NCBI GenBank assembly: GCA_913056385.1
Contig: CAJXND010000005.1
Span: forward strand, 1 to 58,510
Origin: an uncultured Ectothiorhodospiraceae bacterium
GTDB lineage: Bacteria; Pseudomonadota; Gammaproteobacteria; Nitrococcales; Nitrococcaceae
Length of the DNA: 58,510 nucleotides
Direction of reading: 5' to 3'
Part shown: positions 10,838 to 43,971 of the stretch, piece by piece
How positions within the stretch are numbered: position 1 is the first letter of the stretch
Layout: every line of letters starts with the position of its first letter
The notes under the pieces: model-generated
Database searches by the model: none
What the model saw: the letters and a program-made list of their open reading frames with translations, nothing else
What the model was told of the DNA's origin: nothing
Program-made: the position numbers and the translations under genes

Positions 10838-11419
10838 ATGAGCACCCGGAGCACAAGCGAGGGATCCAGCGGGCGTCGGTTTGTTCTGGCCCCCAACATT
10901 GCCCCGGACTGGGGCCAGACGATGCGGATTTTCGCGGGTCTGAGCGTGGTCTGTCTGGGGATCGCCCTGGTATGCACCTGGATGGGTTTCTGGCCGGTGT
11001 TGCCCTTTGCGGGCCTTGAGCTGACCGCCCTGGGGATCGCGCTCTATACCTCGGCACGTCGGTCGCTGGATCGCGAGATCATTCACGTGGCCGGTAGCGC
11101 GGTCCGCGTGGAGAAGGGACGGGGCCGCGTAGAGCGGGCCTGGGATATGGATCGGGCGTGGACCGAAGTCGTACTGCGTCGAGTACCGCGGCGCTGGGAA
11201 GAGACTCAGCTTCTGCTGCGCTCGCGGGGGCAGGAGCTGGTGATCGGCGGTTTTCTCGAGCCCGAGGAACGGCGCAGCCTGGCCCGGGAACTCGGCCGTT
11301 GTATCGGGCCGATGGCGCGCTGTGGCGATGATGGCGCCCTGCCGGCCACCGCGGGCGACGAAGCGCAGGCTGCGCTCTCCGTCGCCCCCTCGCATAGTCT
11401 GGGAGACAGAACGGGATGA
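10838..11419 (+). CDS. DUF2244 family membrane protein
   Basis: A 193-residue protein with the DUF2244 pattern: FVLAPN near residue 15, then two adjacent membrane helices (about residues 30-50 and 52-70) with the conserved LPFAGLE between them, then a soluble basic domain. Its function is unknown. It often sits just upstream of coxB in proteobacteria, and here its stop overlaps the coxB start (ATGA at 11416-11419). A role in oxidase biogenesis or regulation is inference from position. The C-terminal 40 residues are low-complexity and probably not conserved. Confidence 0.8.
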   Translation: MSTRSTSEGSSGRRFVLAPNIAPDWGQTMRIFAGLSVVCLGIALVCTWMGFWPVLPFAGLELTALGIALYTSARRSLDREIIHVAGSAVRVEKGRGRVERAWDMDRAWTEVVLRRVPRRWEETQLLLRSRGQELVIGGFLEPEERRSLARELGRCIGPMARCGDDGALPATAGDEAQAALSVAPSHSLGDRTG

Positions 11420-12291
11420 CAAACATGATCGCCAGGAGGAGATTCGGGCACCTCGGCTTGCTGGCAGGCCTCATGCTGCTTGCGACACCGGCACTCGCGG
11501 ATTTCAGTCTGATCAACATGACCCGCGGCGTTACCGAATCGAGTCAGGAGATCTATGACCTGCACATGACGATCTTCACCATCACCGTGGTGATCGGTCT
11601 CGGCGTGTTTGGTGCGATGTTCTACTCGATCTTCCGGCATCGGAAGTCGCGGGGCGTGAAGCCGGCGAAGTTCCACCACAGTACCGCCGTCGAGATCGTC
11701 TGGACGGTGCTTCCGCTTGTTATCCTGGTGGGCATGGCGGTCCCCGCCACCCGCGTGCTGATCGATCTCGACGACACCAGCGAGTCGGAGATGGCGGTGA
11801 AGATCACCGGCTATCAGTGGTTCTGGGGTTACGAGTACATGGGCGAGGACGTGCAGTTCCTCAGCCGTCTGGCCACGGACAGTGATGTGGCCCGACAGCT
11901 CGACTCCGGCATCAACCCGGCGTCCGTACCCAACTACCTGCAGAACGTCGACCGGCGACTGGTGCTGCCGGTGGACACGCGCATCAAATTCCAGATCACG
12001 GCGGCGGACGTGATCCACTCCTGGTGGATGCCGGACCTGGGCTGGAAGAAGGACGCGATTCCGGGCTTCGTCAATGAAACCTGGACGGTTATCGAGGAAC
12101 CGGGTGTCTACCGCGGCCGCTGCGCAGAACTCTGCGGCCGTGATCACGGGTTCATGCCCATCGTCGTCGAGGCGGTGGAGAGGGACGAATACGAGGCCTG
12201 GCTTGCCGAGCAGCAGGCCGGTGGCGAGCCCGGTACGACGGCTGACGGTACGGATGCAGCCGAGGCCGGAGAAGAACTGGCCGCACGGTAA
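11416..12291 (+). CDS. coxB: Cytochrome c oxidase subunit II
   Basis: CoxB carries the CuA centre that accepts electrons from cytochrome c. The 291-residue protein has a likely cleaved signal peptide (ALA-D, after residue 28), two membrane helices, and a periplasmic cupredoxin domain. CuA ligands are visible: His201 and the C236-x-E238-x-C240-x3-H244-x2-M247 block. No heme c motif (CxxCH) follows, so it is an aa3-type, not a caa3-type, subunit. An in-frame ATG at 11425 is an alternative start. It begins the coxBAC structural gene set. Confidence 0.96.
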
Positions 12292-39419: not shown

Positions 39420-40703
39420 TCAGCCTGCGTTGGCGTTCAGCGCGCGGAGTTCGCTGTAGATCGGCCGGCCGCCCATGGCCTGCGCCGTGAACGTGGCGGT
39501 GAGACAGGCCACGATGATGGGCAGCGCGAGGGCGACATCGCCGGTGAGTTCGATGACCAGCACGATCCCCGTGAGCGGGGCGCGGACGGTGGCGGCGAAA
39601 AGCGCGCCCATGGCGGCCACGGCAAAGAAGGTCGGCGCCAGGTCGAGGGCCGGGGCGACGATGCCGACCAGACCCGCAAAAGCCGCCCCGATCAGCGTGC
39701 CCAGGGCGAGCATGGGCGCGAAGATGCCGCCGGGCAGCCCGAGACTGTAGCTGGTGACCGTGGTCATCAGCCGCAGGGCCAGCAGTCCGACCAGAATCAG
39801 CAGGCCCGTCTGGTCCCGGAGCAGTGTCGCCACCAGCCGGTCTCCCTCGCCAACCGCCGAGGGCAGGTAGGACAACAGCAGCCCGAGCGCCAGTCCGACC
39901 GCCCCGACCAGCAGGTAATGACGACTCGTGGGCAGGGCGCGGACGGACCGCACGCCGGAGAGGAGCAGGCGATTGAACAGCACCCCGATCAGGCCCACGA
40001 TCACGCCGAGGATCAGGAACAATGGCAACGCCTCCACGGCCACCGGGCCGTCATCGACGACGGGAATCGGCAACTGGGGTCCCTGACCCATCAGTGCGCC
40101 GCTGACGATGACCGCCAGGCAACTGGCCAGGGTGACGGCCTGCAGGGTGGTGAACCGGTAGTCGAACTCCTCGCGCAATTCCTCGGTGACAAAAATGATG
40201 GCCGCCAGCGGGGCATTGAAAGCGGCGGCCAGCCCCGCGCCGGCCCCGGCGGCGATCAGGGCACGGGCCTCCGCCCGGTCGCGCCCCAGCCAGTCGCTGA
40301 TCATCTGGCCGAATGCGGCGCCGGCATGAATGGTCGGGCCTTCGCGGCCCAGGGCCAGACCGGAGCCGACGGCCAGGAGACCGCCGGTGAACTTGACCGG
40401 CAGAACGCGGTGCCAGCGCAGGCGACGGTGTGTCCCGAGAATGGCCTCGACTTCCTGGATACCGCTGCCGGCGGTTTCCGGGGCGAAACGCAGAACCAGC
40501 CAGAGTGCGCCCATGAGCATGAGCGCACACAGCAGCATGAGTGACAGCCACGAGGGGATCGGGAGGGTTTCAAGCCATTGGTGGAGGGCCGGCCGCTCGT
40601 CAAGCGCCAGATCGAGGAGGGCATGGAATGCCGCCCCGACGAGGCCCGCCAGCGCGCCCACCAGGGCGGCGGCCAGATAGAATCGCCAGGATCGGGGATT
40701 CAT
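39420..40703 (-). CDS. clcA: ClC-type chloride/proton antiporter
   Basis: A 427-residue ClC protein with GSGIQE (central Ser, residues 79-84), GREGPT with gating Glu121, and Glu175 (TEEL) at the internal proton site, so it is probably a 2Cl-/H+ exchanger, not a channel. GGIFAPM is also present. The ATG overlaps the cydB stop by 4 nt, an unusual pairing: the exchanger appears to be made with the bd oxidase. It could balance charge or chloride in acid or salt stress. Confidence 0.92.
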   Translation of the reverse strand: MNPRSWRFYLAAALVGALAGLVGAAFHALLDLALDERPALHQWLETLPIPSWLSLMLLCALMLMGALWLVLRFAPETAGSGIQEVEAILGTHRRLRWHRVLPVKFTGGLLAVGSGLALGREGPTIHAGAAFGQMISDWLGRDRAEARALIAAGAGAGLAAAFNAPLAAIIFVTEELREEFDYRFTTLQAVTLASCLAVIVSGALMGQGPQLPIPVVDDGPVAVEALPLFLILGVIVGLIGVLFNRLLLSGVRSVRALPTSRHYLLVGAVGLALGLLLSYLPSAVGEGDRLVATLLRDQTGLLILVGLLALRLMTTVTSYSLGLPGGIFAPMLALGTLIGAAFAGLVGIVAPALDLAPTFFAVAAMGALFAATVRAPLTGIVLVIELTGDVALALPIIVACLTATFTAQAMGGRPIYSELRALNANAG

Positions 40704-41707
40704 TCACTCAGTGGTCGCGATTTGCCTCTGAAGATCCAGTATACCCCGACGGTGTAGAGCACCACGATGGGCAGGACAATGATGCCGGCGCCGTAGAACA
40801 TGAACTCGAGCGAGGCGGGTGGCGCGGCGGCCTGGTCAAATCGCAGGTCACCCGGCAGGATCCAGGGCCAGAAACTCAGCAGAAAGGCGGTGAATGCGGC
40901 AAGGAAGATGAGTGCCGTCATCGGATAGGCGAGTCGATCCGCGCGCACCCGCCAGCTCCAGACCGTGCCGGCGATGCCGATCAGGAACAACCCCGCCGGC
41001 ACCAGGACGAGCATCGGTTGGCCGGACCAGCGCGCGGTGATGTCGAGGCCCGCGAGCAGGGTCCAGGCAAAGCTGATGGCGATGAATATCGCGCTGGTCA
41101 CGAGCAGTCGGAGCAGCCAGCGATAACTCCACTCGCGCAGATGATCCTGCGTCTTCGCCACCAGCCAGGCGGCGCCGAGCAGGGCATATCCGGCCACCAG
41201 GCCCAGTCCGCAGACAACGGCGAATGGCGAGAGCCAGTCCCACGGGCCGCCCACGTACTGACCGTTGTCGATATCGATCCCCTTGACCAGCGCACCCACG
41301 GCGGCGCCCTGCACGAAAGCCGCGGCAAAGGATCCACCGCTGAAGCCGAGGTTCCAGAGCCAGCGCCGCTGGGTGCTCCGGCCGCGGAATTCCATGGAGA
41401 CACCGCGCAGGATCAACGCCCCGAGCAGCAGGGCGACCGGCAGGTAGAAGGCCGACAGGAAAATGGCATAGACCACCGGAAAGGCACCGAAAAGCACCGT
41501 GCCGATCACCACCAGCCAGGTCTCGTTGCCATCCCACACCGGTGCGATGGTGCTCAGCATCCGGTCGCGCATGCCGGCGTCCCCACTGATGCCGAAGAGC
41601 ATCCCCACGCCCAGATCGAAACCATCGAGCAGCACGTACATCAGGATCGAGAACGCCAGGGCCGCCGCCCAGAAATGCACCAGATCAAATTGCCAGATCG
41701 TTTCCAA
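40700..41707 (-). CDS. cydB: Cytochrome bd-type quinol oxidase subunit II
   Basis: The 335-residue polytopic protein matches CydB/CioB: the N-terminal helix ends YVLLDGFDLGVGML, and WDGNETWLV follows. It forms the oxidase with CydA. The start is TTG at 41707 with a GAGGAA Shine-Dalgarno; no ATG suits. There is a 38-nt gap after cydA. No CydX-type small peptide follows, as the stop is inside the clcA start. Confidence 0.94.
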   Translation of the reverse strand: METIWQFDLVHFWAAALAFSILMYVLLDGFDLGVGMLFGISGDAGMRDRMLSTIAPVWDGNETWLVVIGTVLFGAFPVVYAIFLSAFYLPVALLLGALILRGVSMEFRGRSTQRRWLWNLGFSGGSFAAAFVQGAAVGALVKGIDIDNGQYVGGPWDWLSPFAVVCGLGLVAGYALLGAAWLVAKTQDHLREWSYRWLLRLLVTSAIFIAISFAWTLLAGLDITARWSGQPMLVLVPAGLFLIGIAGTVWSWRVRADRLAYPMTALIFLAAFTAFLLSFWPWILPGDLRFDQAAAPPASLEFMFYGAGIIVLPIVVLYTVGVYWIFRGKSRPLSE

Positions 41708-41745
41708 ACCCGGGTTCCTCTTTTTTCAGGCAGATCGCCCGGGCC

Positions 41746-43137
41746 TTACTGCCCGAACGGAAGGGCCCGCCGATGGATCTTCACCTCGGTGGATTCGTCG
41801 GCCTCGGTCTCGTTGCCCGGTCCACGCTTGATGGTGCGGTGGATGTAGTAGGTGCCCGCCGGGAAGATGATCGAGTAGAGCCCGATGTAGATCAGCAGCG
41901 ACGTGAGGGCCGTGGCCGTCCCCAGCGAGGGCGTCACCGCATCGGCGGTTCGCAGCGCACCGAACACCACCCACGGCTGCCGCCCCACCTCGGCGGTGAA
42001 CCAGCCAGCGACCACGGCGATGAATCCGCTCGGGAAGCTGAGTGCGGTCGCCCAGAGAAACCATTTGGGTGGCAGCTTGCCGGCATCCATGCGCCGGCGT
42101 CTGACCAGCACCGATCCGACCCAGGAGATGAACAGCATGACCAGCCCCATGCCCACCATGGCCCGGAATCCGTAGAACGGGATCAGGAAGGGCGGGCGTT
42201 CCTCCGCGGGGACGGTCCGGATGCCCGGCTCCCTGGAATCGAAGGTCAGGCTGTCGAAGAAACTGCCGAGCACCGGGACGCCGATCTCGAAGCTGTTCCG
42301 CTCGGCGGCCTCATCAGGCCAGGCGAGCAGCAGCAGCCGCGCCGGTTGTTCCGTCTCCCAACGTCCTTCGATGGCGGTGAACTTGCTCGGCTGGTGCTTC
42401 TCGACGTACTCGCCGTTGAGATGTCCGATGACCAGCTGAAAGGGGATCAGCAGCGCGGCCAGCCCCAGTCCCATGCGCAGCATGACCCGGCTGTCCTCGG
42501 CATGAACGCGTCGCAGCGCGTACCAGGCCCCCACCGCCGCCACGCAGAAGGCGGTGGTGAGATAGGCGGCGAGCAGCATATGGGGGAAGCGCACCCAGAG
42601 GACGTCGTTGGTGAGAATGGCACTCCAGCTGGTGGGCACGAACTGCTGGCCTTCCAGCGCATATCCCACCGGCACCTGCATCCAGCTGTTATTGGCCAGA
42701 ATCCAGAAGGTTGATAGCGAGGTGCCGAAGGCGACCATGAAACAGGACAGGAAATAGAACCAGCGCGGCACCCGGCTCCGGCCGAACAGCAGCACGCCAA
42801 AAAATGTCGCCTCGAGCAGGAACGCGGTAAACGACTCGTAGGCCAGCAGCGGGCCCTGGATCGGCCCGGTGCGCGCGGCCAACTCGCTCCAGTTGGTGCC
42901 GAACTGGAAGGCCATGACGATGCCCGAGACAACGCCCATGACGAAGGCGACCACGAAAATCTTCAGCCAGAAATCGAAAAGCCGCCGGTACACCGGGCGG
43001 CCGGTTGCCAGCGACAGGCCCTCAAGGGTGGTGAGCCACGCCGCCAACCCGATCGTGAACGACGGGAATATGACGTGGAAGGTGATCGTAAAGGCAAACT
43101 GAATCCGGGAAAGAATGACGGGATCGAATTCCAGCAT
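41746..43137 (-). CDS. cydA: Cytochrome bd-type quinol oxidase subunit I (short Q-loop, CIO-like)
   Basis: A 463-residue subunit I with heme ligand His21 (TFHVIFPSF). The region after GHLNGEYVEKHQPSKF is short before the next helix, the short Q-loop of cyanide-insensitive (CioA) type oxidases; E. coli CydA is longer (522). It reduces oxygen with quinol and has high oxygen affinity. The ATG at 43137 with GGAGG lies inside the loop of a long inverted repeat. It follows dsbB by 43 nt. Confidence 0.94.
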   Translation of the reverse strand: MLEFDPVILSRIQFAFTITFHVIFPSFTIGLAAWLTTLEGLSLATGRPVYRRLFDFWLKIFVVAFVMGVVSGIVMAFQFGTNWSELAARTGPIQGPLLAYESFTAFLLEATFFGVLLFGRSRVPRWFYFLSCFMVAFGTSLSTFWILANNSWMQVPVGYALEGQQFVPTSWSAILTNDVLWVRFPHMLLAAYLTTAFCVAAVGAWYALRRVHAEDSRVMLRMGLGLAALLIPFQLVIGHLNGEYVEKHQPSKFTAIEGRWETEQPARLLLLAWPDEAAERNSFEIGVPVLGSFFDSLTFDSREPGIRTVPAEERPPFLIPFYGFRAMVGMGLVMLFISWVGSVLVRRRRMDAGKLPPKWFLWATALSFPSGFIAVVAGWFTAEVGRQPWVVFGALRTADAVTPSLGTATALTSLLIYIGLYSIIFPAGTYYIHRTIKRGPGNETEADESTEVKIHRRALPFGQ

Positions 43138-43171
43138 GGCTCAAGCCTCCAGCATTCTTCCCGGATTCAGT
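43098..43171 (-). promoter_or_regulatory. Long inverted repeat enclosing the cydA ribosome binding site and start
   Basis: On the plus strand the arm at 43098-43117 and the arm at 43153-43171 are reverse complements of 19 paired bases with one bulged A. In cydA mRNA the 5' arm lies in the leader; the 3' arm is made of codons 7-14. The 35-nt loop contains the GGAGG and the AUG. Such a stem could control cydA translation or mRNA stability, or uncouple cydA from dsbB. The structure itself is directly seen; function is inferred. Confidence 0.6.
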
Positions 43172-43180
43172 ACGACCGGG

Positions 43181-43753
43181 CTATGAGTTTTCGAGCATCT
43201 CGTAGGCGGTCGGGTTATCAGCGCAGAGCCCCAGCTCGCACTCGAGCAGCGTGGAGCCGGCATTGGCGATGACCAGCAGGCTGAAGGCGCCGAACGCGAA
43301 CAGGGCGAGGCCGGTCGGCCGAACGGTGTTGCGGGCCCGATCCGTGCCGTCGGCCTTGTAGCCGTTGTCAAAGATCATCATCAGCGCCGAGCCGATGATA
43401 ATGATGCCGAACAGCAGCGCCGCCCAGGTGTAGAAGTGCAGCCCCATGAACGTATCGCCATAGCCTGACCCGTACGGCGAGCTCGGTGCGATATGCAGAA
43501 AGATCTGCCGTACCGACACCATGAAGCCGGTCGCTGCACCCAGGATGACAAGGGCGAAATGCCGCGCGCGCTGCCCCTGGAAGATATTCAGTGCCAGACC
43601 GAAGCCGGCGAGCGCAAAGCCGGCGCGCTGCAGCAGGCAGAGCGGGCAGGGCAGGTCGTCCTTGGCAAGCTGGTCGGCAAACGCAAAGGTCAGCACGAGC
43701 GTAATGGCCAGCAGGCCGAGGGCATTGAGCGTTTTCGCGAGTGAATCCGTCAT
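43181..43753 (-). CDS. dsbB: DsbB-like disulfide bond formation protein
   Basis: A 190-residue four-helix membrane protein with the quinone-side CxxC (Cys36, Cys39 in DLPCPLCLLQR). DsbB reoxidises DsbA and passes electrons to quinone. Its second Cys pair is not in the usual central periplasmic loop; instead Cys172 and Cys177 lie near the C-terminus. It may be a DsbB-like paralogue acting on another partner. It is cotranscribed with the quinol oxidase genes, which would take up the electrons it puts into the quinone pool. Confidence 0.85.
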   Translation of the reverse strand: MTDSLAKTLNALGLLAITLVLTFAFADQLAKDDLPCPLCLLQRAGFALAGFGLALNIFQGQRARHFALVILGAATGFMVSVRQIFLHIAPSSPYGSGYGDTFMGLHFYTWAALLFGIIIIGSALMMIFDNGYKADGTDRARNTVRPTGLALFAFGAFSLLVIANAGSTLLECELGLCADNPTAYEMLENS

Positions 43754-43762
43754 CTCTGCCCC

Positions 43763-43918
43763 CTAGAAGTTGAGATTGAGTTTGTCGGTGGCATGCACGT
43801 TCAGCAGCCAGAGGGTCCAGAGCACACCGCCGCCCCAGACGACATAACCCGCACCGGGTTTTTCAAAAAACACCAGCCCGAGCGCGATCGCGACGAGCAG
43901 GAAGGGTAGCACCATCAT
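43763..43918 (-). CDS. DUF5993-like small membrane protein
   Basis: A 51-residue protein with two hydrophobic helices and the ending LNVHATDKLNLNF, which matches my recollection of DUF5993 proteins linked to dsbB-like genes. Function is unknown. ATG 43918 has a GGGAG 9 nt upstream; the open frame begins earlier with a TTG at 43945. It lies 9 nt before dsbB and heads the dsbB-cydAB-clcA run. Confidence 0.65.
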   Translation of the reverse strand: MMVLPFLLVAIALGLVFFEKPGAGYVVWGGGVLWTLWLLNVHATDKLNLNF

Positions 43919-43971
43919 GAGTCCATTCTCCCAAAAAAGTTCCAAGTCGAACGCCGAGTCGTTGTACCGAT

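Follow-up and report, generated by a model that had tools for sequence, protein, structure and literature searches.

A long hairpin enclosing the cydA start in a few related halophilic bacteria: most likely the result of a copying error, with a possible damping effect on cydA

The start of cydA on the minus strand of the window (the whole stretch of DNA that was analysed, 58,510 nucleotides) is enclosed by a long hairpin, one arm of which lies in the gap upstream of the gene and the other in its first codons. The hairpin is real, non-random and lineage-specific. It was present in two genomes, that of the window and that of a relative designated G009, and absent from two close relatives, G012 and G013. 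With moderate confidence, we interpret it as the product of a template switch in this lineage that may passively damp cydA on read-through mRNA and that is not a switch responding to a signal. If the hairpin is a control element, a single copying error would have created a bacterial start-codon hairpin and altered how two adjacent genes are coupled; should it be no more than a scar, it would caution against taking every long perfect hairpin at a start codon for a selected switch.

The hairpin and its gene neighbourhood

The cydA gene (41746..43137, minus strand) encodes a cytochrome bd-type quinol oxidase subunit I (Pfam PF01654, 493 bits), and subunit II is encoded by cydB (40700..41707, minus; Pfam PF02322, with NCBIfam TIGR00203 above its cut-off). 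Directly upstream of cydA is a dsbB-like gene (43181..43753, minus; Pfam PF02600, 42 bits against a cut-off of 22), which is preceded by a gene for a small DUF5993 protein (43763..43945, minus; Pfam PF19455, 37 bits against a cut-off of 27). The DUF5993 - dsbB - cydA - cydB cluster (40700-43945, minus) places a DsbB-like quinone reductase beside a quinol oxidase. DsbB is a disulfide-forming quinone reductase, and a quinol oxidase could re-oxidise the quinone. Strong matches to the dsbB of the cluster (at least 284 bits, the next being 35) were found in four of the 59 genomes searched, and in all four dsbB was directly upstream of cydA. A literature search found no paper linking Spiribacter with cytochrome bd and, when DsbB, cydA and DUF5993 were searched jointly, DUF5993 was mentioned nowhere among the matches listed.

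The 5' arm of the hairpin, ACTGAATCCGGGAAGAATG (43171-43153, minus), could be read directly in the dsbB-cydA gap, and the 3' arm, CATTCTTTCCCGGATTCAGT (43117-43098, minus), is cydA coding sequence with one bulged T (U in the RNA). The two arms pair over 19 bp with one bulge, 19 of 20 nt being matched, and a repeat finder returned the outermost 14 bp of the stem as a perfect inverted repeat. The initial annotation had described a 19-bp, one-bulge inverted repeat around the cydA Shine-Dalgarno sequence and AUG, with its 5' arm in the dsbB-cydA gap, and both statements were confirmed. It had equated the 3' arm with codons 7-14, which is the correct location, although the exact ends are the last base of codon 7 and the first base of codon 14. 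The loop of 35 nt (43152-43118, minus) holds both the Shine-Dalgarno sequence GGAGG (43150-43146) and the ATG (43137-43135). The start codon had been called caged, an apt description in that it lies with the Shine-Dalgarno sequence inside the loop, but neither one is part of the long helix.

The minus-strand RNA had been proposed for folding and, for the segment 43190-43080, gave a minimum free energy of -43.3 kcal/mol, a stability equalled by none of 200 dinucleotide shuffles (z -4.43). The isolated arms, without flanks, formed a duplex of -29.0 kcal/mol. Thus the leader and the start of cydA form a long helix on either side of the Shine-Dalgarno sequence and AUG, as expected of the class of hairpins that sequester a ribosome binding site on read-through mRNA.

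Distribution among relatives and origin of the 37-nt block

The genome of the window and G013 were assigned to a single genus. A CydA of some kind was found in all 14 genomes of the genus, but this copy occurred only in the window's genome and in G009, G012 and G013, where the protein was 96%, 82% and 81% identical, respectively, to that of the window; the remaining matches in the genus had 46-48% identity. Among the 13 other genomes of the genus, G009 was the sole carrier of the whole hairpin. With up to two mismatches allowed, the 19-nt 5' arm had a single occurrence in the window's genome and a single one in G009, with none in the other genomes of the genus (2 of 14 genomes), and it is therefore not a dispersed repeat. 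An exact match to the 19-mer also occurred in two IMG/VR contigs, L141 (2535-2553, minus) and L142 (1505-1523, plus), which from a reading of their ORFs we take to be RNA-phage-like. BLAST found no further similarity between these contigs and the hairpin locus, and the match is probably due to chance.

The dsbB-cydA gap is 43 nt in the window and in G009 and 11-12 nt in G012 and G013, where the gene order is identical, the 5' arm is missing and cydA is without the second codon, Leu. A four-way alignment showed that the difference in gap length is essentially one 37-nt block missing from G012 and G013 (43134..43170, minus, the exact ends being alignment-dependent), with an additional 1-nt gap in G012 just past the end of dsbB. 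All but one of the 19 nt of the 5' arm fall within the block, as do the Shine-Dalgarno sequence, the ATG and the initial base of the additional codon 2. Between the window and G009 there were no differences in the 5' arm, one in the 3' arm and three in the loop, and the sole arm change, C to T at 43117 in G009, converts a G-C pair to G-U. The initial annotation had suggested that the spacer be aligned in relatives and inspected for compensatory changes; the alignment showed that the 5' arm is kept in G009 and absent from G012 and G013, but comparison of the two carrier genomes revealed no two-sided pair change, the G-C to G-U change being one-sided.

The composition of the block suggests how it arose. 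Its first half is an inverted copy of cydA codons 7-14. A local alignment indicated that ATGCTGGAGGCTTGAGCC (43155-43138, minus) is probably a direct copy of cydA codons 1-6 that has since diverged. The alignment score was 23 against the cydA start of G009, a value that 3 of 5000 shuffles of the spacer attained, and 17 against the window's own cydA start, which 204 of 5000 attained. The direct copy is therefore likely from the G009 comparison and weak against the window's own start. Since one half is an inverted copy and the other is likely a direct copy, nearly the entire block would be derivable from the adjoining gene start. A reverse-complement copy of adjacent sequence that is absent from close relatives, as found here, is the signature of a template-switch scar, and a local template-switch rearrangement appears to be the best explanation for the origin of the block. 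This is in accord with one of the readings offered in the initial annotation, that the start of cydA underwent a small inverted duplication of which the repeat is the scar, which is the best fit given that the block missing from the relatives holds 18 of the 19 arm nucleotides. The change was probably an insertion in the lineage of the window and G009, although G012 and G013 may instead have undergone a deletion; no outgroup with the dsbB-cydA arrangement was found among the 59 genomes or the further loci searched, some of which had little upstream sequence.

According to the favoured explanation, a local replication rearrangement would have occurred at the cydA start in the common ancestor of the window's genome and G009. 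A template switch would have placed an inverted copy of cydA codons 7-14 in the then short space between dsbB and cydA, and the same event would have added the direct copy of codons 1-6 that now presumably supplies the new Shine-Dalgarno sequence. On the dsbB-cydA read-through mRNA, the inverted copy and the original would then form the 19-bp helix, clamping the ribosome binding site in the 35-nt loop.

Inverted repeats were also noted at two other loci in G009. In L126 (18884-18986), a 16-bp stretch in the T-arm region of a tRNA-Ser gene recurs in inverted orientation after 71 nt, downstream of the gene and past a hairpin that by eye resembles a terminator, and this copy is perhaps another template-switch scar. 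In L138, two adjoining perfect inverted repeats, one of 20 bp with a 74-nt loop (11296-11409) and one of 21 bp with a 60-nt loop (11445-11546), lie between genes for an NtrB-like sensor kinase and a glutamine synthetase-like protein, the names being taken from a reading of the translations. A search of Rfam gave no match to the L138 repeats.

Leader pairing was analysed with 67 cydA genes, comprising the 66 loci less L081 and L091, whose matches fall short of the gene start, plus the window, G009 and G012. Each leader was paired in silico with every start region. When the window and G009 were excluded, the leaders of the 65 others showed no tendency to pair with this coding stretch (mean ranks of 0.53 and 0.52 for native leaders vs a null value of 0.5), and the notion of a cage conserved across the family was rejected. 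By leader/coding pairing energy the window was fourth of 67, after L066, L047 and L036, which had lower energies. In G012 (L004), which lacks the hairpin, the tail of dsbB (-71..-58) can form 14 GU-rich pairs with cydA +31..+44 (codons 11-15). This pairing was dropped as a meaningful candidate (leader z -0.78, with 59 of 300 shuffles as good).

Accessibility of the start site and alternative readings

The predicted cost of opening the core initiation region (-20..+15) with 130-nt flanks was 17.9 kcal/mol in the window, 15.9 in G009, 15.1 in G012 and 16.5 in G013, the last value rising to 17.9 kcal/mol with 80-nt flanks. The window was at the 64th percentile of 353 starts, defined as the first ATG of ORFs of at least 150 aa after shadowed ORFs were dropped, so that some are wrong, and sampled not from whole genomes but from the window together with 400 kb of G009, taken as twenty 20-kb stretches. 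When the 5' arm was held single-stranded, the contribution of the hairpin to the cost of -20..+15 was found to be 4.0 kcal/mol in the window and 0.6 kcal/mol in G009; for the footprints -15..+12 and -12..+6 it added nothing notable. The wide footprint (-30..+20) required 36.6 kcal/mol in the window (98th percentile) and 36.1 in G009 (97th), vs 23.0 in G012 and 26.6 in G013, and the value for the window fell to 14.1 kcal/mol with the 5' arm held single-stranded. Taking the window and G009 together, the core footprints ranged from the 37th to the 65th percentile and the wide footprints from the 96th to the 98th. The wide region is costly to open while the core is ordinary, and therefore the helix sits just outside the core ribosome site. 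In this model, hindrance of initiation would depend on whether the 30S subunit uses the loop as it stands or needs to open the clamp. At present, the hairpin would most likely lower cydA initiation passively on read-through mRNA and weaken the coupling of cydA to dsbB translation, with no response to a signal. The translational switch put forward in the initial annotation lacks support, in that the only arm change is one G-C to G-U and the core initiation region is not unusually closed.

The alternative that survives best, a possibility that we nevertheless consider unlikely, is that the hairpin is a selected block on read-through expression, such that transcripts from upstream, which contain both arms, are poorly translated for cydA and those from a promoter in or just after the 5' arm, which do not contain that arm, are translated. 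Its geometry resembles that of the T4 gene e and Bacillus subtilis sigG hairpins. Both arms have been kept in G009, although identity between the two sequences is 86.2% across an alignment of 8,500 bases and 94 of the 263 fourfold sites of cydA differ, and the only change in the arms preserves pairing. The dsbB-cydA spacer differs at 1 of 43 positions, compared with 37 of 156 in three other spacers (22/77, 8/38 and 7/41; Fisher p 0.0007), and this low divergence could mean that the spacer has been selected and is not a passive scar. However, a consensus scan restricted to sigma-70-like promoters found none in 43060-43420, and changes were not significantly fewer in the arms than in the loop (1/39 vs 3/35, p 0.34). 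Moreover, the longest run of identity between the window and G009 in the 8.5-kb alignment, 113 nt (43285-43173), is almost wholly dsbB tail, covering the final 34-35 dsbB codons, and lies outside the hairpin. The final 38 codons of dsbB have 2 silent changes between the window and G009, vs 16 in the sister pair G012 and G013. The identical run is possibly a recombination tract or the trace of a hidden constraint. Because the identity continues into dsbB, and silent changes there number 2 vs 16, recombination accounts for the low divergence no less well than selection; because the longest identical run lies outside the hairpin, the spacer's low divergence was not counted as evidence for selection on the hairpin, to which it is not specific.

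A related and tentative reading, which we regard as rather improbable, is that the hairpin is a young regulatory RNA: one replication error at a tight dsbB-cydA junction would have provided cydA with a Shine-Dalgarno sequence of its own and gated the gene by a hairpin built from its codons, and selection would have kept both arms while the genome diverged by about 14%.

It is doubtful that the hairpin serves as a processing or stability element, a duplex of at least about 19 bp that is cut by RNase III or that protects the cydAB message. A length of 19 bp is roughly sufficient for cleavage by RNase III, and the helix was stable at every modelled temperature. On the other hand, Rfam returned nothing above the gathering score, the two chance-level matches being both outside the hairpin, and the cydA leaders have no family-wide tendency of this kind.

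The arms do flank the Shine-Dalgarno sequence and AUG, which would suit an RNA thermometer or a switch that opens when ribosomes complete dsbB, but either device is very unlikely. In the model, 99% of the 5' arm was paired at 37 C in both the window and G009, and 97% and 93%, respectively, at 65 C, so the predicted hairpin does not melt near growth temperature as a thermometer would, and the temperature switch proposed at the outset found no backing. The suggested control by ribosomes reading through from dsbB fared no better. The dsbB stop codon (43183-43181) is about 10 nt ahead of the helix and, consequently, terminating ribosomes would reach at most its first few pairs; in addition, the relatives that lack the hairpin possess the tighter dsbB-cydA junction.

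As the initial annotation had asserted, a match of this length is very unlikely to arise by chance. When the 43-nt spacer was compared with the first 100 coding nucleotides, the longest perfect arm was 14, and in 2000 shuffles of the spacer it never exceeded 11. By the length of the perfect arm spanning the start, cydA ranked first of the 353 gene starts, the next arms being 11 and 10. By total leader-start duplex energy it was only 51st of 354, a modest rank that we attribute to GC-rich stretches, which give high energies with many gaps; it is contiguous arm length, and not total duplex energy, that singles out cydA. Long repeats occur in any genome, and there were six perfect inverted repeats of at least 14 bp with loops of up to 90 nt in the 458,510 bases of the window and G009 sample, but the cydA hairpin alone among the six overlies the start of an ATG ORF of at least 100 aa. 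Chance complementarity is thus an extremely improbable explanation, given the shuffles, the rank and the fact that nearly all of the 5' arm (18 of its 19 nt) lies in a block that the relatives lack.

Comparison with known hairpins

The proposed origin has a precedent, since template switching can make perfect hairpin stems in a single event, according to PMC8794818. Like those stems, the cydA stem could have been made at once, when neighbouring sequence was copied as its reverse complement. The stems described there were in microRNA and rRNA genes, whereas the cydA stem spans a bacterial start codon and has one coding arm. A literature search for template switching together with translation initiation found nothing related.

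For the proposed effect, the closest parallels are hairpins that act on read-through transcripts. The long early transcripts of T4 gene e fold into an inhibitory structure where the gene begins, and the late ones are without its 5' part; the review (PMC3014915) gives soc, 49 and I-TevI as similar cases. The cydA hairpin shares with gene e a structure at the gene start on transcripts initiated upstream, the 5' strand of which lies upstream of the gene. The Shine-Dalgarno sequence and/or AUG of gene e are in the helix, whereas both are in the 35-nt loop of the cydA hairpin; the 5' strand is removed in T4 by the use of late promoters, while cydA has no sigma-70-like promoter in 43060-43420. Inhibition was measured for gene e, and the cydA hairpin is known from its sequence and predicted folding.

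In B. subtilis, a hairpin of more than 20 bp has been proposed to block translation of sigG on mRNA reading through from the upstream operon, as stated in PMC5942855. The cydA hairpin is likewise long, with a proposed block on read-through mRNA. By the same account, sigG has its own promoter, whose transcripts cannot form the large hairpin. Unlike what is described there for sigG, the 5' arm at cydA repeats codons of cydA itself in inverted orientation, and 2 of the 14 genomes of the genus carry it. By analogy with these accounts, the cydA hairpin, if active, should work like the read-through hairpins of T4 gene e or sigG.
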